A stretch of 64,000 nucleotides of DNA, taken from positions 9,041,353 to 9,105,352 of the forward strand of contig NC_045141.1 in assembly GCF_008831285.2 (NCBI RefSeq). Reading direction: 5' to 3'. This DNA comes from Nymphaea colorata (taxonomy: Eukaryota; Streptophyta; Magnoliopsida; Nymphaeales; Nymphaeaceae). The notes under the pieces were generated by a model. The model saw nothing but the letters and a program-made list of their open reading frames with translations. It made no database searches and had not been told where the DNA came from. Of this stretch, positions 31,801 through 53,311 are shown piece by piece. The stretch's first letter is position 1. The number at the start of each line of letters is the position of its first letter. The position numbers and the translations under genes are program-made.

Positions 31801-34800
31801 GTTAAAACTTTTCGATTGGATAATGCCTGTGAGCAATGTTATTCATATCATACGATACGGACGCGTATCATACGATACGTATCGTATGAGTCAAGAAAAC
31901 CTATACGATACGTGTTTGAAACACGATACGCGTCCGTATCGTACGTGTGTCGCCCGTATCGTGCGATATGGGGGCCGTATCGTACGATACGGGCGATACA
32001 TCCCCGTATCGTATGATACGGGAGACAACACATATTTCTTTATTTTTTAAAAGTTTAAATACTCCTCCCCCTCTCTCTTCTTGTATTTAAAGACTCCAAT
32101 AGACGTAGGAGGGAGAGATTTTGCCCATTTTCATCAAAAATAACCAAGGATTCATCCATTTGGGAGATATTATCGTTGAATTAGGAAACATGATAACTAT
32201 ATGTTTTGAACTTATAAAATTGTGATGTAATCTAAGTCCTAAAACTCCAAGTCCTAAGACTCTAAGCCCTAAGATTCTATAAAATTTTCAAGTTTAAAAT
32301 CGTGATGGATGCTTATATGTTATTCTTGAAGATTTGATTTCTTATTTTTGAATGTGTCGTTGATACACATGAATGTTCCTTATGTATGATGATCTTTTTT
32401 ATATTTGAATACATTTTTCTTAATTTCTGATTTTTTGTTCATTTTTTCAGATTTTTAATGATTTTTCTCTATTTTTTATTAATTTTAAATATTTTTTAAA
32501 ATTAAAAAATTAATTTTACGATACGCTACACTACGTTTGCGATACGTTACGATACGGCGTATAGGTTGGCCCGACCGATACGCGATACGCTACGCCTTTT
32601 ATAACATTGCCCGTGAGTATATATGTCAGTCAGTTGAGGATTTTCTTCGAAAAAGGGGGATTGTTCATGAGACGTCCTGTAGTTATACCCCCCCTCAGAA
32701 CGGGGTGGCTGAGAGGAAGTACCACCAGCTTCTTAATGTCACCAGAGCCCTTTTGTTTCAGAGAAATCTTCCCAAACACTATTGGGGTGATGCATTTTTT
32801 ACTAGTGCGTACCTCATCAACCGTATGCTCAGTCGTGTACTGAATGGTGGACTCCTCATTCCTTACTTCCGGGAAGTCGTCAACCTTTTCTTCTCCCCCC
32901 TCGTGTGTTTGGCTGTGTGTGTTTTATTCATGATCACAGTCCAAATGTTAAGAAACTTGACCCCCGGTCTATCAAGGGTGTGTTTGTTGGGTATTCTTCC
33001 ACTCAGAAGGGGTATAGATGTCTTGATCCTACCACTGGTCGAGTTTATGTTACAAGGGATGTTACCTTTTTGGAACATGCCTCTTACTTTTGTGAGAATC
33101 CTCTTCAGAGGGAGAAGTCTGTGGTTAGGGAAGAGTATTCTCAAAGTCCAGAGATTCAATTTACAGATTTTTTGGATTACAAGAAAGAAGAACCTATCAC
33201 AGTTGTTAATATGTCTGAGAAGGAGAAAGGGTTTAACACCGGGACTGAGAAGGAAGGCCTTCGTTTGTTTGGACAGGTCTACTCTAGACGAGGTGCTCGG
33301 ACAGAGGAGGTGACTTGTGGTGCGAGGTCTGATTCCAATCCCAATGCCATTCCTTCCCTGGATGAACCAAGTCCTACCTTGAAGACTCAAGATGAGGTTA
33401 AAAAAGAGAATGAAGAGCTTCCCATTGCCCTGAGGAAGGGTGTCAGGTCATGTACTCAACACCCGATTGGTAGTTTTGTATCTTATTCTAGACTTTGCAA
33501 GGATTACACGTGTTTTGTATCTTCTCTTTCTTTGGTTGCGATTTCCAGGACCATTGCTGAAGCTCAGAGTGATTCCAAGTGGGCTGATGCTATGAAAGAA
33601 GAAAAGGAAGCCTTGAGAAGAAACATGACATGGGAAGTTGTGAAGATTCCTGAGGCGGCTCACTTGGTTGGATCCAAGTGGGTGTATACCATCAAGTACA
33701 AACCAGATGGGAGTGTTGAAAGATACAAAGCTCGTCTTATGGCCAAGGAGTTCAGTCAAAAATATGTGATTGATTACCTACAGACTTTTGCACCAGTTGC
33801 GAAAATGAAGACAGTTAGAGTTGTTATGTCCCTAGCTGTGATGAAGGAGTGGAGCATGTACCAACTCGATGTTAGGAATGCTTTCCTCAATGGTGATCTC
33901 AAAGAAGAAGTGTACATGCACATGCCCCCAGGATATGAAGAACCAGAGAAATGCTGTAAGCTGAAAAAGGCACTATATGGCCTCAAGCAGTCACCCAGAG
34001 CATGGTTCGAACGACTTAGACGAGTGATGCAACGCCATGGGTATAATCAAGGGAATGGAGACAACACTCTATTTGTGAAGAAAAAGGAGGGCAGGGTCAC
34101 TCTTTTACTTGTCTATGTGGATGACATGATTGTCACAGGAGATGATGAGGTGGAGATCATCAAGTTAAAAGTGTTACTGGCTACCGAATTTGATCTTAAG
34201 GATCTTGGCAAACTGAGGTATTTTCTTGGTATTGAAATTGCTAGATCTAGAACTGACCTTGTGCTAAACCAAAGGAAATACACATTAGATCTGTTGGAGG
34301 AGACTGGTAAGTTGGGGTGTAGACCTGCTTCTACCCCACTTGATGCTGGACACAAGTTGAGCCTCAGAGATGGAGAGCTGCTCTGTGAAGAAGCTAAGAG
34401 AAGATATCAACGTCTGGTTGGAAAGTTGATTTATCTTACCCTTACAAGACCAGATATCACTTTTGCAGTGAATGTACTGAGTCAATTCATGCATGCACCT
34501 ACTGATGCACACCTGAAGGCTGTGGACAGAATACTGTGCTATTTGAAGAGAAATCCTGGCAAGGGACTCTTGTATGTAAAACAAGAGACTTTAGAGATGG
34601 AGGGCTATTCCGATGCAGACTTGGCAGGTTGTGCTGACACTAGACGGTCTACCACAGGGTATTGTGTCTACTTGAGAGGAAACCTTGTTGTTTGGAGGAG
34701 TAAGAGACAGGATGTGTGTTCTCGATCTAGTGCAGAGGCAGAGTATAGAGCCATTGCTATGAGAGTGTCAGAGCTACTATAGTTGAAAATATTACTAACT

Positions 34801-37252
34801 GATATAGAATAGAGATTGAAGGACCTATGAAGATGTACTGCGACAACAAATCTGCAATCAACTTAGCCAACAACCCTATACTACACGACAGAACGAAGCA
34901 TGTTGAGATCAACCGTCACTTCATCCGTGAAAGAATTGATGCTAAAGAGTTAATCCTACCTTACATGAAGTCTGAAGACCAAACTGCTGATGTTCTGACA
35001 AAAGCTCTGTCTTCGACTTCGTTCGAGAGAAATGTATCCAAGTTGGGCATGTTTGATATGTATGCCCAACTTGAGGGGGAGTGTTGAAGCATGTCAAATG
35101 GGTTTCAGGACCGGGTCTGGATCCATACTCGATCCACCGTGTAGCCCTTGTTGGGCCTTACTTAAGGGTTGTAACCCTAATTTTGAGAAGTTAATGAAAT
35201 CTTAAGAGAGAGAGAGTCTGGTCGCTAGTGGGCGCCAGTTCCTCCTCGTCCGTGGTTTTTTTCCTCTTGCTGAGGGTTTTTCCACGTTACATCGTGTTCA
35301 TCGTATTCCTTTGTTCTTGATCCTCGTGTTTCTACAGTTCTCCATGATGATGACCAAGCATGCGACAAATGTTGCCTCACAAATTTTTTCACTTTAGTGG
35401 AAACTACTATGATACCTTTCCCAACATATTATGAGTTATAAATTTAATTTAATGATCAGTACATTCATTCCTCAGAAACACAATAGATTTACACTTTCAA
35501 TAGTTGAAAGTAAACTTGAAACAAATCAATTTGCAATGGTTAAAGCCATTGTCACAAATATCATTAACGGGTTTTCAACAGCTAGGATTTTGTATGGTAT
35601 TTCTTGGCAAAGCAGAAAAATCTCCACAAAAATTCGGCAAATTTTTTAGAAAAGAAAAATCCTAAAATTAGGAAAAAGTAAAATAAATGAAAAACTAACA
35701 AAACATAAAAATAACTTGATAAAATGATGTTTTTTAGTAATGATAGAAATGAAGATAAATAACTTAACTTAAGTTTTAAACTTTAAAGCAAAAATAACAT
35801 AAAAATAAAAATTCATTTTGGATGTTTTTTTCAAAAGAACGGGAAAAAGAAAGGCTTTTCATTTTCATCGTTTTTAACATTTTTATTGGGTCTTTTTTGA
35901 AAAAATGGGTTTTCTGTGACAATGGTTAAAACTAAAATCAGTCCTCAAGTCAGATTGTCCACAAAAAGCAAGAAACAGAAGATCATCTAGAAGTTATCTC
36001 ATGATGAACAGTCTCACCAAAATAATTTAACTTCACACATCTATTACCTACATTTATATGAATGATCAAGCCTTCCTATCTCAGTAAGCATCCAATTAAG
36101 AAAACATCCTAATTCTATTTACGATTGTTCTCTTCAGCCTAAGCTATAGAGACACAAGAAAAAGGAAAAGCTAGCCCTTTCCCATATCCCTATCTAAGAT
36201 CTTCCTTTCATCAGATGGAAGAAAGATAAATATCTTTGGTCCCTCTTCTCCCTCATTATCTACACTACCAAGACTCACATACATGATAGAGACATATCTA
36301 ATGCTGTGTCCAAGCTTTTGCACATAATGCACATAATAATTTAGAAAATGACGTGCCTGTATAATACAGATGACAACATGCAGTATGCACCCTTAGTTTT
36401 TCTCCCATGGTTATGAGGAGACTCAGGAGAGCTACGTGTACACAGGAACTGTGATGCTTCCAAGTTCCAAAGCGACTAAGGAAGCACTAGTTTGAAAACA
36501 GGAGCTCACTTCACATGAAAAAGGAATGAGGTTCCCATATAGAGGAAAGTGGGCTTTTGAACTTTCTTGTTCACTGAAAACGAGCTTCCTATTTCCTGGG
36601 AATAAAGATTCTTAAATTCAGAGTCTCAATTCCCCTATATTTCACTTTTTTCCTTAACAAGCATTCCTGTATTTTACAATTTCACCAGATCAGAAAGATA
36701 GCTTAGAAGGAAAAAAATGAATTTCAAAGTAATAAAGAAACAAAAAGCTATCACAATGTGTTTATTCGTTTCATTTCTAGTTTGTTTCCCATTCCACTCC
36801 CCACTTTGTGGTTGATTCTTAGTTGTAAAGGCATGGACTAGTCCACGCCTAGGCATGAGTCCACACCCATCGCCTAAGACCATCACTTAGGCGACAGGTG
36901 TTAGACTGGCACCTAGGTGCACCCAGGCTGGACTAGGCACTAGCACGCCTAGTCCATGGGAAGGTGAAAAGTCAACTTCCCTTCAAATTAAGTCCTGTAA
37001 TTTTATTATACATTATTATACTGTATATACTTATATTATGTGCAGTTATATTATATAATTTCTGTTCTTTAAGTATAGTTTGTTGTTAATTACATATTCT
37101 ATATCAACTCATCAACTATGTCACATAGGTGCCGGTACGGGTACCGGTGTGGGTACGGGTACGGACCACTTTCAAAAAGCTTGGGTGTGGGGGTACGGCC
37201 GTACACACACGTGCACATATATATCAAAAAATTACAAATAGAATAACATATT

Positions 37253-37306
<54 letters not shown>

Positions 37307-40300
37307 CAAACAGAATAACATATTCACACACATATATATATCAAAAAATTAAAAACACAATAACATATTCATTCTACCAAAAAACTGAGAAGACAATGCA
37401 AGCACACATGAAAGAAAAACACAAAAGTTGAAAAAACAGATGATCTACCAACAGATGGAAAATGGAAATCGTGTTATTGGAAGAAAGTTTTAAGGAGGAA
37501 CGGAAAAACCAAAACTAGACTCCAACAAAACAGTTGCATCGATCGACAATATATTACGAGAAAAGAACCACAAATGAAACCAGGCAAAGAAGGAGCAAAA
37601 CCAGGAAAAGCAAGAAGAGGGAAAGGATTGACATTAAAAATTGAATAAAAAACAGAAAAGCACATTTAGCGAAGTTCAGGAACTAAGAAATCAACTGAAA
37701 TGCTAAATCTCGTCCGTTAAATCCCCTAAAACCCTACAAAGAACCGAACAGAAAGTGAAGGGCCGACGAAGAAGCCAAAACCGGCCAAGAATGATTACAA
37801 AGGCACAAACAGAAAACAGAAGAACAAAAAATGAAGAAAGGAGATCGATCTTCAGAAAACAAACGAGATTTTCGATAGATGAAACCGGCAGTTCGCCTCT
37901 CGCCTCTTGCCTCTCTCCATTCGCCGTCGCAAGGTAGCCGTTCGCAGTTCGCCTCTCGCCTCTCTCCATTCGCTGTCGCCGTTCGCCGGAGTGGAGAATC
38001 ACCTCCCGTCATTGGTCTCGGTGAAGACAAGTGAAGAAGAACAGTTGGGCGTCGAGGGTTACCATATTTTTAACATGAATAAAGTAAACCGTGTTAAATT
38101 GTAAATCACGTTTAAAAACCAAATAAAAGGTCGAAATTGGACTCGGTCAACTTTGACCGAGTCTAAAAATGGACGGACTCGACCCTGGGTGCGTTGACCG
38201 TACCTGGTACGGTCAACGCAGCACCCATGCCGCACCCAAGGCCGTACCCGTACCGGTACCGGTGTCATACCGGTACCATGCGTGTACTCCTCCTTAAGAG
38301 GAGTACCCGTGTGACATAGCTCATCAAGTGGAAGTTCCAGCCATACGTTAAATACATATTCTATAAAACTAATAAATATCAACTTTTGAGCTCTAAAACA
38401 TATTTTGGAACCTATGCCAGCCTTCTTACCCATGTTAAAACCTAGGTTATGGTCAAAAGACCACCAGTTTCTCTTGTTTAATGCATGTCTAGTAATCAGA
38501 GAAATTCGTGCAGACCTCACTTTTGCAACCTGAATACAGATTTATTTTCATTTGTGTTGGTGTTTTGTGTGTTACATGTACATTATACGTTATATGTACA
38601 ATCTATTGTAAACTTGTAACGTAAATTACATGTACTGATTTGATATGATTTTTGTTTGAAATGATTCAAGTGAAATAGTCTATAAGGTCTATAACTGAAA
38701 TAGTCTATAAGAAATGCAACCATTGTCCAGTATGTAAACAAGAATGACGTGTTTTCTTTTGTGTATCAAACCAAGGCATCAGCCAGAACAAAACAACACA
38801 GTTTTCCACTATGTAAACAAGCTGGAAATGTACTGTTAATCTGTCATGTAAACAAGAACAGAGCAACTTTTTATGTTTTACTTTTTGGCTTTACATACAA
38901 AGTATATTCATTCAATTGGAACAGAACAGAACAGAACAGAACATTTTTTCAAGTTTTACTTGGAATAGAAGCTTACAGCTCAGTCAGCAAGTACATAATT
39001 TTATTGTGTAATGGTTAACATAACTAAAAAACCCACAAAAAAGGGTCGCCTTTTTGCCTAGCGTGGCCGCCTTAACAACTAAGGGTTGATTTCATTCTGC
39101 TTTGCGATCCACTTTGGATTGTGCTTTTAATTTACTCCACACTTGCTAAAATTTTTTCTGAACCCAGTTTCCCATTTCCAGTCCTGTATTACTTTTCACT
39201 CCTGCTTCAATAATTGGTGAACTACTGAACTTGCTTTTCTCTTCATTTTTTTTTCCTAAATCAACTAGCTTTAAAATCTTTTCAGTTTCTGAGTTCTGAA
39301 AATTTAAATTCCTTCTATTCATCCAAGTTGCTTTGATAGGTCATATAAGGCCTAAGTTGCAGTTGTTACACTACCCTTTACAGACACCAAGTAATTTGTG
39401 TGGTCAGAAGCAGGCATAGATGCCTCTTCACCAATTTTTTCTTTTTGGTTTTTGACACTAAAAGAGTAACTTCTTTCATCTGTTCAGTCTTGACTTGCTG
39501 CATAAGGTAGGGGAGCTTTGAGACCCCGCCATCCCCTTTACTCCTTTTCCTGCTCCATTTTTTCTGACTACAAATTCCTATCCTTTATGCCATGCTTAAT
39601 TGTTGACTAGGCCATTTTAGTTGCACAAATTCCCAGTTCTCATTTGTGCATCCCAAGTCTTCTCTTCAGGGAGGTTATTTATTAATTCATTCATAAAATT
39701 TCTTTTATATTATTGACCTTAATAGGGTAAGCCACCAGGCCAACCAATCTAGCCAATATATTGACCTTGAACAGTACTATATTTTGGTGCCTAAGGTAAC
39801 GTTTGATGGGCTGAAAATTCACTGTAGCACAGGAAATTTATTTCAAATTTTTAAAATTTTTTCAGTTTATCAAACATGGCATAAAGGATAATAAATTTTT
39901 TCACTTTAAAATTTTTTCAGTTTCAAAAAAGAAAATTTTTTTGACCGTTGGAGCTGGAAACGGAAATATATTTCCGGAAAAAAATTTCCGACTGAGAGCC
40001 GGAAAATTTTTTTCGGTTTTTTTTTTACCATTACCTCCGTTGCCTCCCTCGCTCGCCTTCTTCCTGCACCTCCCTTCTTCCTCCCTCTCTCCCTTCTTCC
40101 TCCGTCCCTCGCCTGCTTCCTCGCTTCCTTTTTCCTCCCTAGCTCCCTTCTTCCTCTGCCTCCCTTCTTCCTCCACCTCCCTTCTTCCTCCCTCGCTCCC
40201 TTCTTCCTCCTTCGCTCCCTTCTTCCTCTGCCTCCCTTCTTCCTCCCTCACTCCCTTCTTCCTCCACCTCCCTTCTTCCTCCCTCGCTCCCTTCTTCCTC

Positions 40301-43300
40301 CCTCGCTCGCCTTCTCCCTCGCCTCCCTTCTTCCTCCCTCGCTCGCCTTCTCCCTCGCCTCCCTTCTTCCTCCCTCGCTCGCCTTCTCCCTCGCCTCCCT
40401 TCTTCCTCCCTCGCTCGCATTCTTCACTTGGAAATATATTTCTTTTTCATCAAACTAAGCAATAAATTTCTGGAAATTTATTTTTCAGTCATCACACAGA
40501 CATCCAAATGAGAATCAGAAAGATTTTTCCAATTCCTTGGGCAGGAGCTGCACAGAACTGATATGAGAACTGAGCATATCAGTTCAACTAAAATATCACA
40601 GAGCTCGAGCTCAAGTCAAGCTTGGGCAGGTGAGTTCATTCTTGGGCAAACTCAATTCAAGTTCAGCACATGCTAAACCCAAGCAAGTAAATATATAGGA
40701 AAACAAAAAGCATTTTGAATGTACAAAGTGGCTACAGCAAGATTGAAACTCATTACATTTAAAAGAAGATATGGTTACCACTGCATCTGAACACCTTGTA
40801 AAAACTGATAATATGCAACATCACAAGCTAAGTAACATGGACTTGCCAAAACAGGCACAGCATCCGAGACAACACAACTCAAGTGCAACACCCAGCATGG
40901 TCATATGCAAGTCAGACATGTTAAGCTGCACCTGCATATTTCCATCCAAAGTGATGTGCACTAGACTCGAATGAACAGTGAGTAGGCTGCAGAGAAAATA
41001 TTGCTTGAGCTCATTTTCATCCTCTAGTCGACTTAAAAAGAAATGATTTAGGTTTTGAAGTTCCTCATTTTCCTGTGTTGCTCTCTCTCTCTCTCTCGCT
41101 CCCTCCCTCCCTCTCTTTCTCTCTCCCTGTCACACACACACACACAAACACATAACTGTAGCTTGCCATCAGAATCTTTGAGGGAAACTGATGACCAGGA
41201 AGCATTGGGCTGACTTTTCTGTTATATTTGTCTTAATCTGTTTTCATCTTTTTTTTTTCTGTTTTATATGTTCTTTTTATTGTACAACCCATAATAATCT
41301 AAACCAGTCTATAACCTGCCTTAGTGTCTTATAATCTGCTTTATCTGTTTTAAACTTTTTCTGTTTTAATTTCAAATTTTTAATCCGCTCGATGTGAACC
41401 TGTTTTAGTTGACATATATAATCTGTTTTGCTTTATTATATAATCACTTTTACTTTCATTATATTTTGTGCTTTTCTGTTTTTTTGTTAAAGCATTGGTA
41501 GAATGATATTGTGATAGTTTGCTCTATATATAATATACATTAAAACTGTTACGAAGAGCCACTCAAGAAATGAGTGATTAACAACTTGTCGCCCAGTTTT
41601 TCATCTTCAACAAACAGTACTGAACTTTTTAAGTTGTTCTTCAAAGAGCCCCACAATATCTAAACCTTAAAATTGATGGTTAACTTATACAAATAGATCT
41701 TCAATCCAATTAACTTAAAAAAAAAAATAAAAGAAAATATTGTTGCCCGTTGCCTGGCAAGGGGTGGTGGGGATCGATGGATTGATGATCACTGGGTAAA
41801 AAAGGCCAAGGGTTTGGCCTATGAACAATCATTGTCAGGTGAGGGTTGAAACTCGACCCTTTCTGGAAGGAGTTGACCAGCTAGGGTTAAACGGTGACAT
41901 TGTTGATCCCCATTGACCTTCTAGACAATGAAAATCAACCCAGCTGTCGACCCCTCGACCCTCGCAGACAATGAGGATCAACCTTGGCGAGGGTCAAAAT
42001 CTTTCTCCCTTGTCATCCAAAGAGGGTGACTATTTTTTCTTTTAAATAGTTGTGATTAAAAGGAAATTTAGTAACTTAATCATTGATTTTAAGATTTTGA
42101 AATAAAAGATGGCTGTCCGAGAAATGACCTCAAAAAGTTGAGCAGTTGAATGTATGAAATGTTCAGCTGACTAGAGCAAGTTGAACTTAGGTCAAGTTCG
42201 ATCAACTCAACTCAATATGTGCCTCTACCTCTAAACATATCACATATATGCAGGAATGGGTTTGAGATTCACAATCTTTTGAGAAGTTTAATAGACGACT
42301 TGTATGTAAGAGGACAAGATGTTGGCGCCTAAAAATATAGCAGAGTAAATGAAGGCATTGATGATGGTGCTTACAAGATTGAAGATTATGATGCATGGCA
42401 AGAACCATAGTAACAAAGATCGCAATGGATCTAAATAAGCAGTTAAAGATATCAACGAAGAATTATTCTGCTGTTAATGCTTGTAATAGATCACTTGTAA
42501 CTGCTCCTTAAAATAAGGAACTATCCTTTGTAAAAGACCCTGTAAATATCAAGGTCTTATTAGCACTACCGACTTCAAGGTCATTTATCCATATTAAGCT
42601 CATAGTGTTTTTTCTTTATCTCAGTTTAAGTTTTTCCCACCGAGCCATAATGAGAATCTTGTGATATATCCATCGTCTTTGTATGCCTATTTTTATGCAT
42701 AAGAAGCTTTTACCTTTCACACCTTATGAGTTGGTTCACCTAAATGTCTAGGAGCCTTATTAGAAGTTAAAAATGCTTTGCCTCTAAAGTAAAGGAGGTT
42801 AATCCTTTCTTCCTGGCCCTGCATCTTAGTTCTTAGAGCTTACACCTTCAAAAGATTAACTAAACTAAAAATCTTCAGTAAGACATTGCTCATTTTCTGA
42901 GTCCATTTACTTGTAAGTTGGCGTTCTTTGAGAAAAGGGAAAAATCAAAATTGGAAAAGAACCCTATTGTGGAGAATAACTAGTAGAGCTAACATAACAG
43001 AATATTATACATTTAAAGTATACAATTCTGCAATTGTTAGTAACTCATATTGAATAAGAAATTAAGCTTCAAGATTCCAATTCAGTAACTAAAATTTGTT
43101 TTTAAAAAAAAAAAAAAAAACAATGTAAAGAGTTAACCGCACCTGCGCATCAAGATATGTACACGCCGCCTCGAGCGCAACCTCGAGCGCCCGGAACTCG
43201 AAAGGCAAGCTGTCAGCAGGAGTGGAGCCACCGCCATAGGCGTAATCAAAGTTGGGAATTGAGGTCGAGGAGCCGCGCCTGCCGTTTAGGGAGCCGGAAC

Positions 43301-43733
43301 CGCTACCAGCACCATTGAGGCGACGCTGAAGCTCGACGACGTACTGAAGGACGTAGCTGTCAAGGGAGTTGAGGAGAAGGACTTCGTCGGCGGTGATGAT
43401 GCAGCGGATCTGCTCGAGATTGACGACTATGGCGCTCTCGCGGCCGAGGATGGTGGAGGGATAGACGAAAAGCGGGTCAAGGAGGCGGAGGTCTCGGGCA
43501 GGAAGGTCGCAGCGGCGCATGACGGCAAATTTGTCGAGCTCGATGATCTCAGAGTTGCCGCCGCAGTCCACGCGGATCCAGGAGCGGACGCCGTGGCCAC
43601 GCTTCTTGAGCCCGAGGAAGTCGAGGCCGTGGAAGAGAGGGCGAGAAGATGTGGAGGAGGAGGAGGTGGTGGTGGTGGCGGTGTTGGAGTTGGGTTTGGG
43701 TAGAAGAAGACGTTCTTTCAGATCGGAAGCCAT
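16648..43733 (-). CDS. MRS2: MRS2/MGT-type magnesium transporter, five exons, 25-kb first intron
   Basis: The spliced product is 444 residues, the usual length for the plant MRS2-1/MGT2 group of the CorA-MRS2-ALR1 superfamily. These proteins form pentameric channels that carry Mg2+ across membranes; in plants members sit in vacuolar, plasma, mitochondrial or plastid membranes. Visible landmarks: N-terminal LKERLL, LKKRG then [47 protein letters not shown], the coiled-coil segment [20 protein letters not shown], and two C-terminal membrane helices (about 376-399 and 417-436) with the diagnostic Gly-Met-Asn at 400-402. All four introns are GT-AG and keep frame. I chose the Met at 43731-43733 because the family begins with a short Met-x-x-LKERLL end; an in-frame Met 61 codons upstream is probably in the 5' UTR. 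Nothing in the exons suggests decay. Confidence 0.95.
17221..17268 (-). CDS. MRS2: MRS2 exon 4, 48-bp micro-exon (residues 353-368)
   Basis: Sixteen codons, [16 protein letters not shown], between TTTACAG and a GTTAGC donor, phase 0 on both sides. The peptide is an almost invariant part of the family and is easily missed by gene finders. Confidence 0.93.
17362..17697 (-). CDS. MRS2: MRS2 exon 3 (residues 241-352)
   Basis: 336 bp. It encodes [20 protein letters not shown], the acidic stalk segment, then a Ser/Pro-rich loop ([12 protein letters not shown]) and the [20 protein letters not shown] helix. Acceptor TACAG|GTC, donor TCG|GTACAC. The preceding intron is only 74 bp. Confidence 0.95.
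17772..17900 (-). CDS. MRS2: MRS2 exon 2 (residues 198-240)
   Basis: 129 bp between acceptor AG (17901-17902) and donor AAG|GTACTT. It encodes [18 protein letters not shown] and the start of the long stalk helix up to RRVQK. It is joined to exon 1 across the 25-kb intron in phase 0. Confidence 0.95.
19397..19651 (+). repeat. Copia-A 5' LTR
   Basis: Starts TGTTGAAGC and ends TTTCTACA (TG...CA). Includes a (GA)n run and the block that would hold the promoter. It is followed by the primer-binding site for initiator Met tRNA. Confidence 0.94.
19652..20306 (+). other. Copia-A primer-binding site and GC-rich leader
   Basis: CGGTATCAGAGCC begins at 19652. The leader up to the gag start codon is GC-rich and contains CGCCCGAC words repeated many times (for example around 19750, 19785, 19807 and 20163). 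Long open frames on both strands here follow from base composition and are not genes. Confidence 0.7.
20307..21835 (+). pseudogene. Copia-A gag, protease and start of integrase
   Basis: Starts MSAIMAAS. Gag words include [12 protein letters not shown] and [11 protein letters not shown]; one TGA (20772-20774) interrupts it where Trp would fit, then the same frame resumes. The zinc knuckle [14 protein letters not shown] (about 21083-21124) is complete. The protease reads [12 protein letters not shown], so the Ser of the DSG triad is Asn. The pre-integrase part has [15 protein letters not shown] and [11 protein letters not shown] before Copia-B cuts the frame. Confidence 0.9.
21836..22019 (-). 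repeat. Copia-B 3' LTR
   Basis: 184 bp. On the minus strand it starts TGTTGAAGTTGAGG and ends CTCACGACAATA. It adjoins the polypurine tract at 22020-22032. Confidence 0.92.
22027..23873 (-). pseudogene. Copia-B reverse transcriptase and RNase H
   Basis: The first part (23873-23112) has [34 protein letters not shown] and [12 protein letters not shown], stopping after RKAIYGL. The second (23275-22643) carries an intact YVDDIILTG and [12 protein letters not shown], to VTRPDISY. The RNase H part (22635-22027) reads [35 protein letters not shown] and DIFTKAL. Two frame breaks separate the three blocks. Confidence 0.9.
23880..25394 (-). pseudogene. Copia-B protease and integrase
   Basis: The protease reads [12 protein letters not shown], with Phe in place of the triad Ser. 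The integrase has [13 protein letters not shown] and [15 protein letters not shown] (HHCC zinc site), LHVDVWGPS (Asp), VRTDNALEF (Asp), and TGVAERKH (Glu), so the catalytic triad is intact although frames change near 24545 and 24281. The C-terminal part has [12 protein letters not shown] and IFIGYPKNQ. Confidence 0.88.
25400..26234 (-). pseudogene. Copia-B gag
   Basis: Begins MEQRDSIVD at 26234. Words include [17 protein letters not shown] and [19 protein letters not shown], the Gag helical region. A stop lies near 25950 and another near 25493. The zinc knuckle [14 protein letters not shown] follows the second stop and keeps all four ligands. Confidence 0.86.
26951..27134 (-). repeat. Copia-B 5' LTR
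   Basis: 184 bp, matching 21836-22019. The primer-binding site lies at about 26938-26950. Confidence 0.92.
27140..27305 (+). pseudogene. Copia-A integrase segment between Copia-B and Copia-C
   Basis: [15 protein letters not shown], the Cys pair of the HHCC zinc site, and HSNVWGPSG, where the first catalytic Asp of the core reads Asn, are visible before Copia-C interrupts. This short piece proves that Copia-B and Copia-C both sit inside the same Copia-A copy. Confidence 0.88.
27306..27558 (-). repeat. Copia-C 3' LTR
   Basis: On the minus strand it starts TGTTGAAGTATGTTAGACGG and ends TTTCTACA. The polypurine tract (ACTTGAGGGGGAG) lies at 27559-27571. Confidence 0.93.
27724..29330 (-). pseudogene. 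Copia-C reverse transcriptase and RNase H
   Basis: Three open blocks in sequence: 29330-28917 ([36 protein letters not shown]), 28863-28651 ([37 protein letters not shown]) and 28614-27724 (intact [65 protein letters not shown]). Small frame breaks separate them. It is closely similar to the same region of Copia-A. Confidence 0.92.
29334..30932 (-). pseudogene. Copia-C protease and integrase, one nonsense codon in the core end
   Basis: The protease reads [13 protein letters not shown]: the catalytic Asp itself is Asn. The integrase has [47 protein letters not shown] and NGVAERKN, so its zinc site and acidic triad are intact. A TGA near 29865 replaces the Trp of the YWGDA word, then the frame resumes to 29334 with [12 protein letters not shown] and [14 protein letters not shown]. 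Confidence 0.9.
30933..31413 (-). other. Copia-C GC-rich leader joined directly to protease
   Basis: About 480 bp of GC-rich sequence with GGCGGCGGTGACGGC-like triplet runs. Copia-A has leader and then about 1 kb of gag at this place. The junction with the protease lies near 30900-30930. Long open frames on both strands here are composition artefacts. Confidence 0.75.
31414..31666 (-). repeat. Copia-C 5' LTR
   Basis: 253 bp, matching 27306-27558, next to the primer-binding site at about 31401-31415. Confidence 0.93.
31672..31833 (+). pseudogene. Copia-A integrase core segment between Copia-C and hAT-1
   Basis: The peptide reads [20 protein letters not shown] and then TFRLDNA, which carries the second catalytic Asp. 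It is cut by the hAT-type element and continues at 32610 with [11 protein letters not shown]. Confidence 0.87.
31834..32609. mobile_element. hAT-1: non-autonomous hAT-type element with CGTATCG arrays, nested in Copia-A
   Basis: The 776-bp element has perfect 9-bp terminal inverted repeats CAATGTTAT/ATAACATTG and an 8-bp target duplication, CCTGTGAG (31826-31833) and CCCGTGAG (32610-32617), 7 of 8 identical. It splits the integrase word DNA|REYICQ of Copia-A. Both ends are packed with CGTATCG/CGATACG words, often as palindromes. The centre is AT-rich and encodes no transposase. Confidence 0.88.
32610..35087 (+). pseudogene. Copia-A integrase end, reverse transcriptase and RNase H
   Basis: The integrase resumes with [20 protein letters not shown], including the catalytic Glu. 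A frameshift near 32880 moves it to the long open frame up to 34782. RT landmarks: [43 protein letters not shown], and an intact [11 protein letters not shown]. RNase H landmarks: [43 protein letters not shown] at 34780-34782 replaces a Trp codon and a small indel follows; the tail (34827-35087) reads [15 protein letters not shown] to LEGEC, with the stop reaching into the LTR. Confidence 0.92.
35082..35336 (+). repeat. Copia-A 3' LTR
   Basis: 255 bp, starting TGTTGAAGC and ending TTTCTACA, nearly identical to 19397-19651. It is followed directly by the duplicated target GTTCT. Confidence 0.94.
35342..36809. other. MRS2 intron sequence, nothing recognised
   Basis: AT-rich intron sequence between the Copia-A target site and the hAT-2 target site. 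No coding or repeat signature was recognised. Confidence 0.4.
36818..39083. mobile_element. hAT-2: hAT-type element with CCTAGGCG words, host of hAT-3
   Basis: Terminal inverted repeats CTTAGTTGTAAAGGC and (reverse complement of the right end) CTTAGTTGTTAAGGC match at 14 of 15. GGTTGATT is duplicated perfectly on both sides (36810-36817, 39084-39091). The left subterminal region (36831-36961) is full of CGCCTAGGC, GCCTAAG and CTAGTCC words and can fold back on itself (CATGGACTAG...CTAGTCCATG). The right end has GCCTAGCG. Without the nested hAT-3 it is about 1.05 kb and codes for nothing recognisable. Confidence 0.85.
37116..38319. mobile_element. hAT-3: hAT-type element with GGTACCGG arrays, nested in hAT-2
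   Basis: Terminal inverted repeats CTATGTCACA/TGTGACATAG are perfect over 10 bp, and CTCATCAA is duplicated perfectly (37108-37115, 38320-38327). Both ends carry dense GGTACCGGTAC and GGGTACGG words. The interior holds a CA/TA microsatellite, a diverged threefold repeat of AATAACATATTCACACACA and a C-rich block with CGCCTCTCGCCTCT. No transposase is encoded. Confidence 0.9.
39092..39800. other. MRS2 intron sequence, nothing recognised
   Basis: AT-rich. No coding or transposon signature was recognised. Confidence 0.35.
39800..40492. repeat. Probable MITE-like element with a CTTCCTCCCTCGCTC minisatellite core
   Basis: The core (about 40030-40428) is a tandem array of CTTCTTCCTCCCTCGCTC units alternating with CGCCTTCTCCCTCGCCTCC, strictly polypyrimidine on the plus strand. 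The flanks are loosely inverted: GTTTGATGGGCTGAAAA on the left against the reverse complement of TTTTCAGTCATCACACAGAC on the right, each followed by GGAAATTTATT-like sequence. No target duplication was found. Open frames over the array (Ser/Pro- or Glu/Arg-rich) are repeat artefacts. Confidence 0.6.
41618..42145. repeat. Probable fold-back MITE
   Basis: The left arm (CTGAACTTTTTAAG at about 41620, CTTAAAATTGATGGTTAACTT at about 41666) is inverted at the right (CTTAATCATTGATTTTAAG at about 42076, CTCAAAAAGTTGAG at about 42130). The interior is GC-richer, with TCGACCC words. The arms are diverged and no target duplication was fixed. Confidence 0.45.
42146..43142. other. MRS2 intron sequence next to exon 1
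   Basis: AT-rich, with a long A-run (about 43103-43121) close to the donor of exon 1. No gene or transposon was recognised. Confidence 0.4.
43143..43733 (-). CDS. MRS2: MRS2 exon 1 (residues 1-197)
   Basis: 591 bp, phase 0 end, donor CAG|GTGCGG. It encodes the soluble N-terminal domain, with a Ser/Thr-rich stretch (about 19-30) and a Gly/Ser-rich loop (about 141-170) that is variable in the family. It is strikingly GC-rich (coding strand) compared with the AT-rich surroundings. Confidence 0.95.
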
Positions 43734-46700: not shown

Positions 46701-48639
46701 ACTATGAACAGACAACAAATTGAACCAACTCAGACTATGCCCTCAATCCACAAAATAATTCAGTCAAATATAGGGCAACCGTTATGCATTGACAACAAGT
46801 CCAGCCAACTCTACCTCGACTCAAACTCACTCGATAACGAACAAGTTGAGCTCATGCTTGATTTAAAACTCGAGTTATAAACGTAACTAGAACTCGACTC
46901 ATTAAACTCATTTTAATGTGTTTGATGATTCCTTCTCTGATTGTAAAAAGCTCAGAAAAATTAGAGACATTTATTGTAAACACCTGATTTTTAAGGGCAT
47001 TAAAAAGATTTTTTTTTTGAAAATATATCTTGTTAATTAAAATTTATTTATTTTTAGTAGGTCGTTACTGTTCCTTAATCTCTCTACAGCTATCGTTATC
47101 TTTACTTCTCATCTTTGTTTTCTTTTTATTCGTTCCTCCCTCCCTGCTACTTCGCAAGTCGTGAGGGGTGGGTGCGTCAAGCTCGTGCACGGTTGTTGAG
47201 GGCTGAATATGTTGTCTAAGTACGTTGCCCGCGTCTTCTTGTCTTGTTTATGCCTCTGGTTCGGTTTGAATAATTTTCAATACGTGATCTGTGTGTGTAT
47301 GATCAATATTAGAAAAGTGTTAGCATGAATGCTATGACTGACGGTGGTGGTGATACACACTTCCTTTGTGAGCATGATGTTTTTCCAACTTGTGAATATA
47401 TACGTCACAGCATAGATCGATGTTATGATCAAGATGCCTTTGCAATGTTTCCAACCTACGCATGTTTGGGAACTTATCTGGACCCATTTCTGCTACCTTT
47501 GTTTCTAGTGAGAACATGTCATACTTACATGATGCCACATCCATATGATATGTTCATTACATGTATACATCTGATTCATGATTTTTGTTACATGTCTATA
47601 ATCCATATTCACATGCACACATATTTCCTGATTTTCCTAGCTACAATTGAAATCATGAGAAGGGTTTCCCATGTCCTATTGATTCGTTTGTGCGCCCCTA
47701 CGTCTGCACCCTTATTTTCCCACCGGAACTTCGTGTCTATTGACCTGAACATGTAGAAATAAATAACAATAATTATAATGATAAAAAGAAAAAAAAAAAA
47801 AAAAAGATGTACCGAGGGTGGGTGATGAGTTTTTTTATAGTTTATAAACTCAATCTCAAAATCACCCCTAGCTTTGCATCTTCTTCCAGAACAATGTTAC
47901 CATGGGAAAATTGTTTGTGCTGCGCAAATTCTTTGAACATATTTACATAAATAGAGTTTGCTAATCGCAACTCAGCTTTGCAAATGTCTGGTTTCTGGCA
48001 AATTCTGGAAACAGGCCTCCTAAGCTGAAACTTAATCCTTACATCTCCTTGGGCTTTAAAAAACCTATGAGAAAGGAGTTTCTGTTATGTTCTCTATATA
48101 AGCCTAGTTTTCTTGATCAACTGAGATTTCATAGAGTAATTATGTTGGACTTTGAGGCTTAGTCTTGGAAAATTGAGATACCTTTTGGTTCCATTCTATT
48201 TTTATGCTGGTTCTATTGTGAGCTTATTACCGTTGACTGAATTGAATTGGGATCCTAAGTTGGGTATAGTTTAGCTTGTACGAGCTTATCATAACAAATT
48301 AAGTTCACACTTATCATCGATTTAGAGAATCAGTAGACTTGGATTTAGATCTCATTTATCTTAAAATGCATGTTTTGGTTCATGTAAGTTTAAATTCAAA
48401 TATGTTTTCACCAGGGATGCTCTGAATATCCATTGGTACATATTCTGTTTTATTCAAAATATGGTTCTTTATGAAAAACAGGTTTAAAATACATCACCCT
48501 GAATCTACTAGACTTTGAATCGGACCAAGGTTAATTAAATTAAGTTGTTTTTCAGAAATTTGTCATTTGGTGGTACGTTTGAAACTTGATGTGGCTTCGA
48601 TTCATGGAACCTTAAAATTTGTTTTACAAGAAAAAATAA
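43734..48639. other. MRS2 promoter side and intergenic sequence
   Basis: The first part (to about 44040) is GC-rich 5' UTR and promoter of MRS2 on the minus strand. Beyond it the DNA is AT-rich with no recognised gene. A possible MITE with TGTTTGGAT/ATCCAAAC ends lies near 44389-44560, and a diverged repeat with GGAGCCAGG-like ends at about 45240-45410. Isolated TCGAG/GAGCTC words occur near 45700 and 46850. An open stretch at 47325-47756 shows no protein family motif. Confidence 0.4.
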
Positions 48640-48759
48640 TCACTTTACAAAATCGACCCACCTTAAGAACCAACTTTTGAAAACACACTTTAGTTTAGAA
48701 ATTTTCTAAATAGCCTTTTTAAAAAAAAATTAAGCTTAACAATTCTCATCCTCTACAAG

Positions 48760-49686
48760 AAATTTCGTCCTCAAAATTTAACTTACCTCTTGATAAACAA
48801 ATGAAGGTATCTAGATCTCATCTCATCTTCTCATTCCCAAGTGGCATCTTGTTCTGCCATATTGAACCACTGTACCTTTACAAGTGATACAGTTTCTTAT
48901 TGAATTACCGAATCTTTTTGTATCATAATGCCTATCGGTTTCACTAAATAAGTCAGATCCTCATTTAACTGTATTGATTGTTCTTTAAGAACATGCGAAG
49001 GATCATGAATATATTTTCTCAACATCGATACATGAAACACATTATGAATTCTATTGGGTTATGTAGGCAATTCTAATCAATAGGCTACATCTCCAATTCT
49101 CTCTAAGATACCATATGGTCCAATATATCATGGACTGAATTTATTACCATGCCCAAATCTTGCTACTGCTTTCTAAGGCGATACCTTGAAAAAAACTGTC
49201 TCCCACTTCAACTTGACTTTATCTATAGCTATCTGTATCAGTTCTGGCTCTAAGAGTTTCCTCTCACCTACTTCATCCCAACATACTGGTGTCCGACATT
49301 TTTTACCATAAAGTATCTCATAAGGTGTCATCCCAATACTAGACTGAAAACTATTGACATATGCAAATTCTATAGAGGTAGGTATACATCACATGAGCAT
49401 TGACACAAGCACGTAACATATCTTCTAGTGTCTAAATCGTTCTTTTAGTTTGTCCATCTGTCTGTGGATGGAAGGCTATACTGAACCTCAATCTAGTTTC
49501 CATGAATAAATGCAAACTTGGCCAAAATTTAAGAGTGAAGCAAAGATTTCGATCAGACACTATCAACACTGGGGAACCATGCAATTTAGCAATTTCTTCT
49601 ACAAACAACTGTGCTAACCTATCAATAGTGGTTTTCCTCTTGATGCCTAAGAAATAGGCATATTTGGTAAGCCGGTCTACAATCAT
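48760..49686 (-). pseudogene. Gypsy-G integrase core and C-terminus
   Basis: MIVDRLTKYAYFLGIK carries the first Asp, VLIVSDRNLCFTLKFW the second, and FHPQTDGQTKRTI stands where FHPQTDGQTER is usual, so the catalytic Glu is Lys. The downstream part is broken; ATWE-like words and, close to the LTR, FEDE-type residues typical of the gypsy Pol end can be made out in other frames. Confidence 0.8.
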
Positions 49687-49819
49687 CCAAATAGTATTAC
49701 TTCTATTTGGAGAACATGGTAGACCTATGATAAAGTCAATGGTAATATGTTCTCATTCCACTTTGGTATAGAGAGGTTCGCACCATCCCCACATGCCTTT
49801 ATTGTTATGCTTTATTCAT

Positions 49820-50062
49820 CTAACATGTCAAGCATTTTGAAACATAGAATGCTATCTTTTTTTTCATACCAGGCCAACAATAACTATCTTTAAAATTTCG
49901 ATACATCTTCATACTACCCGGGTGCATTTCATATTTGGAGGTATGTGCTTCTTCCATAATAACATGCTTAAGTTTTGTGTCATTGGGCATTTGCAGTTTA
50001 GTTCCAATCATGAAAATATCGTCTTCCATTACCTTAAACTCTTGTTCTTCTCCTGTTTTCAC
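49820..50062 (-). pseudogene. Gypsy-G integrase zinc-binding domain
   Basis: [20 protein letters not shown] followed by [20 protein letters not shown] is the H2C2 zinc site of gypsy integrases (His, His, Cys, Cys all present). A stop precedes the core domain. Confidence 0.85.
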
Positions 50063-50131
50063 AATCTAAACTATCTTTTGCAAATTCTCATCAAGGACTT
50101 GTGATTCCCTTATTCGTTCATAAAAAATATG

Positions 50132-50473
50132 TTAAACATGTAGTTGTGCACATAAGATTCCCATGCTACTTATTTTTAGATCGGTCTTTAAAGATTGGAT
50201 CTCCAAAAGGGATGGAAGTCGTGTTGCCTTTATATAAGCGATAGCACATGAATTCTTTCGACTCAAAGCATCTACAACCTGGTTAACCTTATCATGGTGA
50301 TAATCAATGGTACAAACATAATTCTTAATCAATTCTAACCACAGTCTCTGTCTCATGTTCAACTCTTTCTGGCTAAGTAAATACTTTAAACTTTTATGAT
50401 CATTGTATATCTGACACTTTTTGCCATACAAGTGATGTCTCCAAATCTTCAAAGCGAAGACTGCAATTGTCAA
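50132..50473 (-). pseudogene. Gypsy-G RNase H
   Basis: [40 protein letters not shown] and VVDALSRK are standard gypsy RNase H words. The stretch is open to just before the integrase zinc domain. Confidence 0.87.
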
Positions 50474-50695
50474 TTCTAAATCATATATAGAATAATTTTC
50501 TTCATTCCCTTTTAGTTATCGGGATGCATAGGTGATCACCTTATCATTTTGCATTAAAACACAACCTAATCCCTTATGAGAAGCATAATTGCTTATGACA
50601 AACCCAACTCCTCTTCAGGCAAAGAAGTATTGGGCAGATATAAGTTTTTGTTTCAGTTTTTCAAACTTTTCTCACAAGCCGAATCCCACTCAAGC

Positions 50696-50911
50696 TTAAC
50701 ATTCTTTCTCGTCAACTGAGTTGAAGGAGAAGCCATAACAAAAAAATCTTTTAATAAACCTTCTATAATATCCGGCTAAGCCCAAGAAGCTATGAATTTC
50801 TGTATAAGAAGTGGGTTTCTCCCAATTAAACTCTCTCTCTCTCTCTCTCTCTCTTTGTCTTCCATGCCCTAGGAGATCAGGAGAAAACCATAACTTTCTA
50901 GCACAATTCAA
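50696..50911 (-). pseudogene. Gypsy-G RT/RNase H junction fragment
   Basis: SFLGLAGYYRRFIK is the highly conserved word just after the RT domain. Directly upstream a (GA)n run begins and RT is gone; YVDD-type sequence is absent. This marks the internal deletion border. Confidence 0.8.
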
Positions 50912-52066
50912 AATCTAATGGTCACGAGGATAAAATTTTGAACTATTAAACTCTTAAAATTAGTAGAACATGAATGTAATCACTACTTTCTACATGATAT
51001 GCAATGCATAATCAATAACGTGAATCTAACTTCTTCCTATCACACTGGGAACACAGAGGCTAAAATATAATCATGCTTAGCCGCTGCTCACAACTACTAT
51101 CTTCCTCAGATGAGAAAAGAAAAGAAAAGAAGATTCAAAGGATGAGTTCTACTGACTCAGTGAGCATCACACTATAAACTGATAATAATTGAAAACAAAT
51201 ACAAATTACAACAATTGAGAGAAATCTTGACATATGCAACTTTCAAGCATAATGAACTTTCTCATATCACTTTCTTACTTAAGTTCTCTCTGTTGCCTCA
51301 AGAGAGACTTGCTCTCTACTTGAGGTCCTACACTTGAAGGGCTTGCTCCTTCGTGGAATCTTGAGACTAGTGACCATCTTTCTTTTTATAGAGGACTTGC
51401 TCCTCCCCACCTCAACCTTAATTAGTACCCAACAACAATCCATACAGCTGCAGCCCTATTCAAGAATAACACAGAATTGAAAATTTTCTCTTTTCCCAAC
51501 ATTCTACACTCAATACTTCATTCTCAACCCATCCACACCTGTCTTCAAAGAAACAGCCCTCAAAAACTTAATCATATAGCCCCTTCAGCCCTTTATAGAC
51601 ATGAAATATCATTGCCATCATAAGTCACATGCTAAGACTAACAATAATCAGATTCCTCTATCATAAATTAACAAGCAAACGTTCAAATCTTGAATTTAAG
51701 AAGAAATTTTACATCTACTTGAACCAAAAGCTAAAATTCGAATGACCTTACCTTTTTTGTCGTTCTTCTCTTCCTTTATTTCTCAATCTCTTGTCTGCCC
51801 CCTTTCTACCTCATCTCTTCTCTCGTTCTCCCTCTTTCTCTTTTCTCTCCCGCTCTTGCTCTCTCGTTCTCTCTCCGTCTCCCTTTCTCATTCTCTCAAA
51901 CTCACTCTCTGTTTATGGTAAAAAAAGAGAGGAGGCACAAATGGTGCGATAAAACCCTCCCTTTTTGCACTTTATAAAATCAACCCACCTTAAAAGACTA
52001 ATATTTGAAAACACAATTTAGTTTAGAAATTTTCTAAATAGCTTCTTTTTTAAAGAAAAACTTGTG

Positions 52067-52790
52067 GGTTTTACACACACACTCTCTCTCTTTCACTCTG
52101 TGTATGTGTGTAACCCTCAATTGAAGTTTTTTGAAGGAGGACCAATGATCGATCGCTCGGTCAAAAGTTTCAGAAACTTCAAACGTGTGTTGAAACAAGA
52201 GTAGAACCCTCAATCTTTGAAAATTGAAACACTCAATCGAGGGTTTCAGGACCCTCTATCTTACGATTTACATTTTTATTTTTTGTTTATTTTGGTTTTT
52301 CTTAAATGGTATTATTCTTCCTTCCTAACAGCAACAACAAAAGCTAACGTGAAGTTTCCTCTTTTGCCTTGTTGCCATCTACCTCAATAGTAGGAAGACA
52401 CATTTCATTGCCCAACAAAAGCATCTCCAGCTTAAATGAGTCGAGTTTGAGCTTTGACAAAACCAACTGAACTTGAGCTGTGGCACAGTTGATCGGAGCT
52501 CGAGCTCAAGCTAATATTGTGGAGCTCGACTTGACTCATGTACATCTATAGTAATAACAATAGGACCTGAGTGAGTGAGTTGATGATAATGATTCTAAAG
52601 TCTGAAGGTGAAGGGATTTTCAAATTGGGTTGAAAATAGAATTGATCACACTCCTTTGTCAAACCCATTAGGAGGAGCCTATGGCTACTCTTTTATCTCA
52701 CACATCAGGCTGAGTCAGTTAACGTCTCTTTAGTTCCTACTCTATCCCTTTTTTCTTAGGTTTCATTACTCATTGGGCAAGTTCTCACCC
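52067..52790. other. Intergenic sequence with a TCGAG-family fragment
   Basis: There is a CACACACTCTCTC run at about 52071-52100. At about 52435-52550 words such as GAGCTCGAGCTCAAGC and a terminal CATGTACATCTATAG suggest a diverged member of the TCGAG-word MITE family. No gene was seen. Confidence 0.4.
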
Positions 52791-52798
52791 TTTTCAAC

Positions 52799-53303
52799 TA
52801 GGGGTGAACATGAGCCGAGTTGAGCCAGATCGAGCTTGGCTCGATGAATAAAACTCAGCTCAAGCTCAAGAATAGCTCGACAGAAGCAGCTCGAGCTCAA
52901 CTCGGCAATTGCGTATTGAGCTGCGGCCCGACTCAATCAAGGCTTGAAAAACTTGTTTGAATATTTAGACTATTACTTTGCCATAAATCGAGCTCGACTC
53001 GATTAAGGATCGACAAACTTGAATGAGCTTTCGTAAAAACTTACATAATTAATTAATGTCAATATACAGGTTTTTTAATTAAAAAACAAGTCGGATATTT
53101 AACAAATCACTACATGTCATTTTCGAGCCAAGTCGAGCTTTAACAGTTCAAGTTCAGTGGACTCGAACTCAACTCAATTATTTGAACGAGTCGACTCATG
53201 AACTCGAGTTTGACTTGTTAAGCAAATGACTCTGCTCGAACTCGTTTACGAGCTGAACTTTAACGAGTCAAGCTCGGGTAGCTCGCTTCCTTGTTTACCC
53301 CTA
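52799..53303. mobile_element. hAT-4: 505-bp hAT-type MITE with TCGAGCTCGA arrays
   Basis: Terminal inverted repeats TAGGGGTGAACA and TGTTTACCCCTA match at 11 of 12 positions. The 8-bp flanks are TTTTCAAC (52791-52798) and TTTTCAAT (53304-53311), 7 of 8 identical, as expected for a hAT duplication. Both halves are full of GAGCTCGA, CGAGTC and GACTCGA words; the AT-rich middle is plain. No transposase is encoded. Confidence 0.9.
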
Positions 53304-53311
53304 TTTTCAAT

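Follow-up and report, generated by a model that had tools for sequence, protein, structure and literature searches.

Four gene-less elements, probably of four different hAT families, with family-specific subterminal words in the genome of Nymphaea colorata

If several hAT families reside in one plant genome, what distinguishes the ends of one family from those of another? The question is raised by a stretch of 64,000 nucleotides of Nymphaea colorata (contig NC_045141.1, positions 9,041,353 to 9,105,352 of the forward strand; hereafter the window), in which four elements, here designated E1 to E4, combine short terminal inverted repeats (TIRs), 8-bp target site duplications (TSDs) and a characteristic repeated word. 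A preliminary description had presented them as four hAT-type families built on one plan, devoid of coding capacity, with ends packed with family-specific, self-complementary words and each mobilised by its own autonomous element. The window was compared here with the 407.8-Mb assembly (783 contigs) of which it is part. The results make it very probable that E1 to E4 are gene-less, non-autonomous members of four different hAT families in one plant genome, resembling miniature inverted-repeat transposable elements (MITEs), and that their subterminal arrays would serve as binding sites for transposases made by longer sister copies of each family.

All four elements are placed on the plus strand. 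E1 (31834-32609) measures 776 bp, carries the TIR CAATGTTAT at both ends and is flanked by CCTGTGAG (31826-31833) and CCCGTGAG (32610-32617), which agree at 7 of 8 positions. E2 (36818-39083; TIR CTTAGTTGTWAAGGC) spans 2266 bp, the nested E3 included; its ends, CTTAGTTGTAAAGGC and CTTAGTTGTTAAGGC, pair over 15 bp as an inverted end containing a single mismatch and stand between two identical copies of GGTTGATT (8/8; 36810-36817 and 39084-39091). E3 (37116-38319; 1204 bp), with CTATGTCACA at both ends and CTCATCAA on either side (8/8; 37108-37115 and 38320-38327), lies within E2 and is therefore the younger insertion. E4 (52799-53303; 505 bp) has the ends TAGGGGTGAACA and TAGGGGTAAACA and is bordered by TTTTCAAC (52791-52798) and TTTTCAAT (53304-53311), again a 7/8 match. 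The anatomy given in the preliminary description, matching ends with 8-bp duplications, was thus borne out for all four elements, as was the absence of coding capacity, none of the hAT proteins compared having a match inside E1-E4.

Taken by themselves, such signatures are weak evidence, because a blind scan for TIRs accompanied by TSDs returned 49 candidates in the window and 25, 26, 25, 31 and 30 in five Markov controls; TIRs and TSDs within the window were consequently rejected as sole proof of the elements. It is the copies of the ends elsewhere in the genome that make the four-element call firm. Counted as forward plus reverse matches, with the reversed pattern as control, the E3 end was found 908+887 times against 6+8 (at most one mismatch), the E4 end 453+486 times against 26+20 (at most two), the E1 5' end 264+258 times against 0+0 (at most two) and the E1 3' end 539+616 times against 346+317 (at most one). 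The count for E2 (74+59 against 55+54, at most one mismatch) barely exceeds its control and is weak; among 100 listed E2 ends, 13 facing pairs and no back-to-back pairs occurred within 6 kb. For E1, E2 and E3, 20 loci each were fetched over 3 kb. An 8-bp TSD with at most one mismatch was present at 16 of the 20 E1 loci (14 perfect; loci taken from 3'-end matches), 12 of the 20 E3 loci (9 perfect) and 3 of the 20 E2 loci (2 perfect), the last set including L079, a truncated extract of the window copy. Individual E2 loci showed 8/8 (L082, L088), 7/8 (L085) and 6/8 (L080) agreement, and under looser limits (up to four mismatches in the ends and two in the TSD) seven E2 loci pass, the window's own not counted. 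No perfect 7- or 9-bp flank match was seen in any E3 pair among the 20 fetched loci, and for E4 the TSD evidence consists of the 7/8 match of the window copy.

The words that mark each family were examined first within the window copies, against 1000 dinucleotide shuffles, bearing in mind that the words had been picked after inspection of the sequence and that the coordinates used were 1-4 bases off. E1 holds 10 CGATACG/CGTATCG half-sites in its left subterminal array (31853-32011), in both orientations and partly as inverted pairs, and five CGATACG sites at its right end (32519-32589), all in plus orientation; its 15 words compare with a shuffle mean of 0.23. In E3, with 11 words against 0.40, GGTACGG/GGTACC sites occupy the left end on the plus strand (37134-37198), in part as a 6-bp direct tandem, and the right end on the minus strand (38198-38278), most of them in the opposite sense; exact GGTACCGG occurs four times in the window, always within E3, and exact CGCCTAGGC once. 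The left end of E2 has eight GCCTAG/CCTAGG/CTTAGGC words (36846-36957) in 301 bp against 0.35, and E4 has eight GAGCTC/CTCGAG/AGCTCGA words against 0.60, dispersed through the element (52830-53208) and not confined to its tips. In all four cases none of the 1000 shuffles reached the observed count. Further GAGCTC/CTCGAG clusters lie outside E4 at 1301-1905, 40601-40612, 43170-43541 and 52496-52528, and are possibly further members of its kind.

The same words lead the k-mer rankings across genome copies with both ends and a TSD of at most one mismatch (two for E2), the window copy included each time, although the counts are not independent events, because the copies share descent. CGATACG was found 183 times in the ends of 17 E1 copies (8.3 in shuffles), CCTAGGC 42 times in eight E2 copies (0.9), and the direct-tandem units CCGTACC and CCGCACC 37 and 28 times in 13 E3 copies (2.5 and 0.3), where AT and CA runs in some copies also rank at the top; AGCTCGA occurs six times in E4 (0.2), represented by the window copy. 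The claimed density of family-specific words stands for E1, E3 and E4, and in E2 for the left end but not the right, while the packing of words at the ends holds for both ends of E1 and E3 and fails for E4.

Self-complementarity proved to be a property of some words only. It is found in the E2 palindrome GCCTAGGC (17 occurrences, in 13 of 16 E2 ends, with mixed site orientation), in GAGCTC and CTCGAG of E4 and in the paired sites of E1, and is lacking in the CGATACG core of E1 and the GGTRCGG core of E3. Palindromic 6-mers as a class are not enriched in E1 (180 observed, 188.8 in shuffles), modestly so in E2 (60 against 35.9), and number 169 against 88.6 in E3, where 90 of the 169 are ATATAT/TATATA, with nine GGTACC and ten ACCGGT; the single E4 copy has eight against 4.9. 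What differs between E1 and E3 is the arrangement of sites. E1 joins inverted half-sites into palindromes such as the paired site CGTATCGTACGATACG, and does so exclusively on the left: among the 17 copies, 31 instances of the paired form CGTATCGNNCGATACG were counted (0-5 per copy), none of them within the final 200 bp. In 37 cases adjacent sites point towards each other at a spacing of 9 bp, the left part of a long copy on contig C6 (described below) being counted in; left ends hold 61 plus and 65 minus sites, right ends 58 plus and none minus. E3 uses directional tandems, with 34 plus and no minus sites in left ends, 39 minus and two plus in right ends, and a 6-bp tandem as the commonest step. 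Given the non-palindromic cores of E1 and E3 and the tandems of E3, palindromes are one site arrangement and not a common plan. Three E3-family loci (L006, L012, L019) keep the family TIR and carry other GC-rich sites in their ends (for example GGTGCGG and GACACGG) in place of GGTACGG, from which it follows that the word drifts within one family.

Such arrays could also have arisen as by-products of local tandem duplication in the end regions, retained through common ancestry without any selection for binding. The roughly 20-bp steps of the E1 left end and the 6-bp steps of the E3 ends do resemble local tandem growth, and E1 copies vary between 1 and 18 sites. We nevertheless consider this origin improbable: the sites of E1 and E3 occupy the two ends and leave the middle free (those of E4 are spread out), longer partner copies retain the sites at 73-80% sequence identity, and the ends of E1 keep a CpG observed/expected ratio of 2.73, compared with 0.47 inside the element and 0.57 for the whole window. 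The ratio is likewise higher in the ends than inside for E3 (1.31 against 0.89) and E2 (0.63 against 0.32), and the trend is reversed in E4 (1.21 against 1.61). Ends rich in CpG make methylation-sensitive recognition a possible extra layer, in which CpG methylation might affect how a transposase recognises them.

For every family the search brought up longer elements that share its end or subterminal sequence and contain hAT transposase sequence, as the preliminary description had anticipated. These partners are of the DUF659 type for E1, E2 and E3, and of the Ac type for E4. The dimerisation domain expected of them is present in the partners of E3 and E4, the identification of those of E1 and E2 resting on DUF659. 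The best-scoring PF05699 (hAT dimerisation) loci were rejected as partners, none of 30 carrying any of the four word arrays, and DUF4371 places, inspected by eye only and their list left unused, showed no consistent spacing to element ends.

The strongest element-partner link of the four is that of E1. Among 100 listed E1 5' ends and 150 listed DUF659 domains, 19 ends lie 1127-1252 bp upstream of a domain on the same strand, and among these listed matches no pair occurs in any other arrangement within 6 kb; 98 of the ends and 91 of the domains are on contigs C1-C8, and by our own estimate about 0.002 pairs would be expected by chance. A full E1-type copy of 5627 bp (C6:10869429-10875055) has both ends and bears DUF659, matching window E1 at 80% over 179 bp on the left and 94.7% over 75 bp on the right. 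Eight of the listed DUF659 places (C1:7701883, C2:34093337, C4:2481938, C7:4146321, C7:11374433, C12:163615, C13:14322029 and C14:11503060) have uninterrupted frames of 650 codons with an identical score of 197.4 bits, which suggests recent amplification; an E1 5' end precedes each of the five that are on C1-C8. DUF659 sequence at L059 (1806-2486) was rejected as an E1 partner, and that at L087 (2285-2637) as an E2 partner, since each falls outside the local element copy; both stretches perhaps reflect insertion beside older hAT elements.

The E3 partner (C1:1673668-1677219, L093; 3552 bp) has both family ends, which align to window E3 at 73% over 199 bp and 75% over 191 bp, and between them DUF659 (PF04937, E = 8.5e-43) and the hAT dimerisation domain (PF05699, E = 2.1e-8); Pfam gave no BED match in its transposase frame. 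Seventeen places on C1-C5 match this transposase at 73% identity or more; at three of them, the first copy counted, one of 100 listed exact E3 ends lies 872-1011 bp before codon 1 on the same strand, and at one further place an E3 end lies on the opposite strand at the edge of the matched part. E3-like sister transposases with 58% identity recur as open frames of 670 codons (e.g. C9:23390160, C7:6463091, C8:7391497). As for E4, the right ends of both L091 and L092 can be aligned with its left end, that of L091 at 96% over 26 bp and 73% over 132 bp, and the other side of L092 also aligns, to E4 positions 317-454 at 82.6%. These two loci, decayed copies that agree with each other at 87% over 3840 bp, have GAGCTC words in the E4-type end and adjoining hAT sequence (PF14372, E = 1.4e-26, and PF05699, E = 1e-23, in L091; PF05699, E = 2.5e-23, in L092), a domain pair that we take to be Ac-type. 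The E2 partner, finally, is a copy of 3998 bp (C3:490183-494180) with the perfect TSD ACGCCTTC (8/8) and a DUF659 fragment (E = 1.7e-11; 44.5 bits, curated cut-off 34.7).

The presence of DUF659-type sequence in the partners of E1, E2 and E3 would also suit a situation in which one or two transposases cross-mobilise all four families and the words are neutral labels. This appears unlikely, seeing that the TIRs differ between families, that none of the 19 E1-linked DUF659 places was found by eye among 102 listed matches to the E3 transposase (97 of 1329 candidates scored), that the 76-residue E2 fragment aligns to the E3 protein over 24 residues only (54%), and that the E4 partner is of another hAT type. 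The assignment to hAT combines, for E1, E2 and E3, 8-bp TSDs beyond the window with a transposase partner, which is given by the near-constant DUF659 spacing of the 19 listed ends in E1, by the one-locus DUF659 fragment in E2 and by a partner with a dimerisation domain in E3; for E4 it is given by a partner with a dimerisation domain, both copies of which are incomplete. No family with duplications of another length and no partner of another superfamily came to light in these comparisons, and the hAT type proposed for the four elements is upheld.

Several observations weigh against membership of four families with one partner each. Within the 3 kb fetched and the limits used, paired TSDs with at most one mismatch were lacking at 4 of the 20 E1 loci, 8 of the 20 E3 loci and 17 of the 20 E2 loci; among the E3 loci, L002, L004, L009 and L016 have both ends, and no duplication was found. 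The flanks of the long E1 copy on C6 agree at 6 of 8 positions only, those of the E3 partner on C1 (GTTAAACC and GCCACAGG) do not match, the left tip of L092 is unrecognisable and a left end of L091 was not found, so that no complete E4 partner was seen. The E1 transposase is known from the family search listing alone, which covers the DUF659 region and not the dimerisation domain. The E2 partner is a single locus, read over 1401 middle and 60 end bases, in which no word array was seen, and its DUF659 may come from a separate, nested hAT element. As regards the words, the right end of window E2 holds one, a count reached by 76 of 1000 shuffles and hence not an enrichment, and the eight words of E4 are equalled in 2 of 614 other 505-bp stretches of the window, around 1301-1905. 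Of the 30 best PF05699 loci, six hold loose matches to a single end, none of them with a word array.

The reading of E1-E4 as non-autonomous hAT elements with transposase-binding arrays implies a mechanism of the following kind. Each family would keep several copies of its own short site, for the most part within 50-250 bp of its ends, and longer sister copies would make the family's transposase, DUF659-type for E1, E2 and E3 and Ac-type for E4. This protein would most likely bind the sites through its N-terminal DNA-binding part, bring both ends together, excise the element and reinsert it with an 8-bp staggered cut, each transposase presumably acting on its own family only; in E1, the inverted pairs of the left end may bind two zinc fingers cooperatively, as in Hermes. 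Such binding is suggested by precedent, as the Hermes, Ac and Herves transposases have been shown to bind subterminal repeats. Hermes BED domains bind a quasi-palindrome in the left subterminal region cooperatively, and the right-end repeats STR1-STR5 of Hermes all have the same sense (PMC10368747); Ac transposase binds AAACGG subterminal repeats (PMC3260210) and Herves transposase binds CG/AATTCAT (PMC3143072), and sequence preferences vary widely among domesticated hAT DNA-binding proteins, CGG or CGC being a usual component (PMC8097297). Least probable is that the ends fold into hairpins, recognised by a transposase or acting as a source of small RNA, and that the words are not duplex binding sites: six of eight end stretches do fold unusually well (z from -2.84 to -6.72, equalled by at most one of 200 shuffles), most strongly the E1 left end (-4.50 and -6.72), the E2 left end (-5.95) and the E3 right end (-4.93), but inverted sites fold by construction, folding is weak in the left ends of E3 (z -2.11, 7 of 200) and E4 (z -1.91, 5 of 200), none of the 31 inverted pairs lies in the E1 right end, E3 sites are directional, and the Hermes, Ac and Herves transposases bind duplex repeats (PMC10368747, PMC3260210, PMC3143072).

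Beyond array binding by family transposases, a further-reaching possibility can be put forward, with more doubt than conviction. The four hAT lineages may possess mutually exclusive end codes that differ in both word and grammar, namely inverted pairs at one end in E1, inward-directed 6-bp tandems at both ends in E3 and overlapping palindromes in E2 and E4. The left end of E1 might then represent an expanded landing array of the Hermes type, with many cooperative zinc-finger pairs whose steps alternate between 9 and 11 bp, two successive steps making roughly two helical turns, and single sites at the right end, and CpG within or bordering the words could allow methylation to silence recognition.

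As in Ac/Ds (PMC3260210), TIRs are short, TSDs measure 8 bp (beyond the window in E1, E2 and E3), non-autonomous copies share ends with a transposase copy and several subterminal sites are present; unlike in Ac/Ds, the words have other sequences and three of the four partners are of the DUF659 type. The asymmetry of the E1 ends, with inverted pairs on the left only and right-end sites in one orientation, recalls Hermes, in which an inverted, quasi-palindromic pair is found close to the left tip and the right-end repeats have one sense. Hermes, however, has a single pair there and another deep in the interior, with its other left-end repeats mostly in one sense, whereas the left end of E1 has up to five pairs per copy and both senses equally (PMC10368747). 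Herves and Tag1 likewise have a family-specific subterminal motif bound by the transposase, of a sequence different from those found here (PMC3143072), and BniHAT-1 and -2 of Brassica nigra, plant hAT MITEs, are also high-copy non-autonomous elements (PMC7385995). In the present plant hAT set, the subterminal words of four families were set side by side and longer copies with transposase sequence were placed in the genome. The TIR of Tag1, like that of E1, begins with CAATGTT, a resemblance confined to the TIR. No match to six end and word strings was found in the literature searched, which says little, since many repeat families exist only in databases. That hAT transposases bind family-specific subterminal repeats is already established; what is new here is four further hAT members, each placed beside longer transposase-bearing copies.

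The neighbourhood of the elements offers two further observations. An inverted sequence pair at 28975-33668 (16/16 at the outer ends) appears by eye to consist of two opposed copia-type retrotransposon fragments, one of which apparently received the E1 insertion. At 35547-35924 there is an AT-rich stretch of 378 bp, possibly a fifth hAT-like element, with CATTGTCACA at both ends (10/10), the flanks GTTAAAGC and GTTAAAAC (7/8) and no obvious word array.

Four words, each with transposase sequence in the same genome, provide a test set for how hAT transposases recognise their own ends among those of competing families. E1 lends itself particularly well to this purpose, with uninterrupted DUF659 frames of 650 codons and about 500 counted 5' ends, and its Hermes-like difference between ends would allow the Hermes model to be applied to a plant hAT of the DUF659 type.

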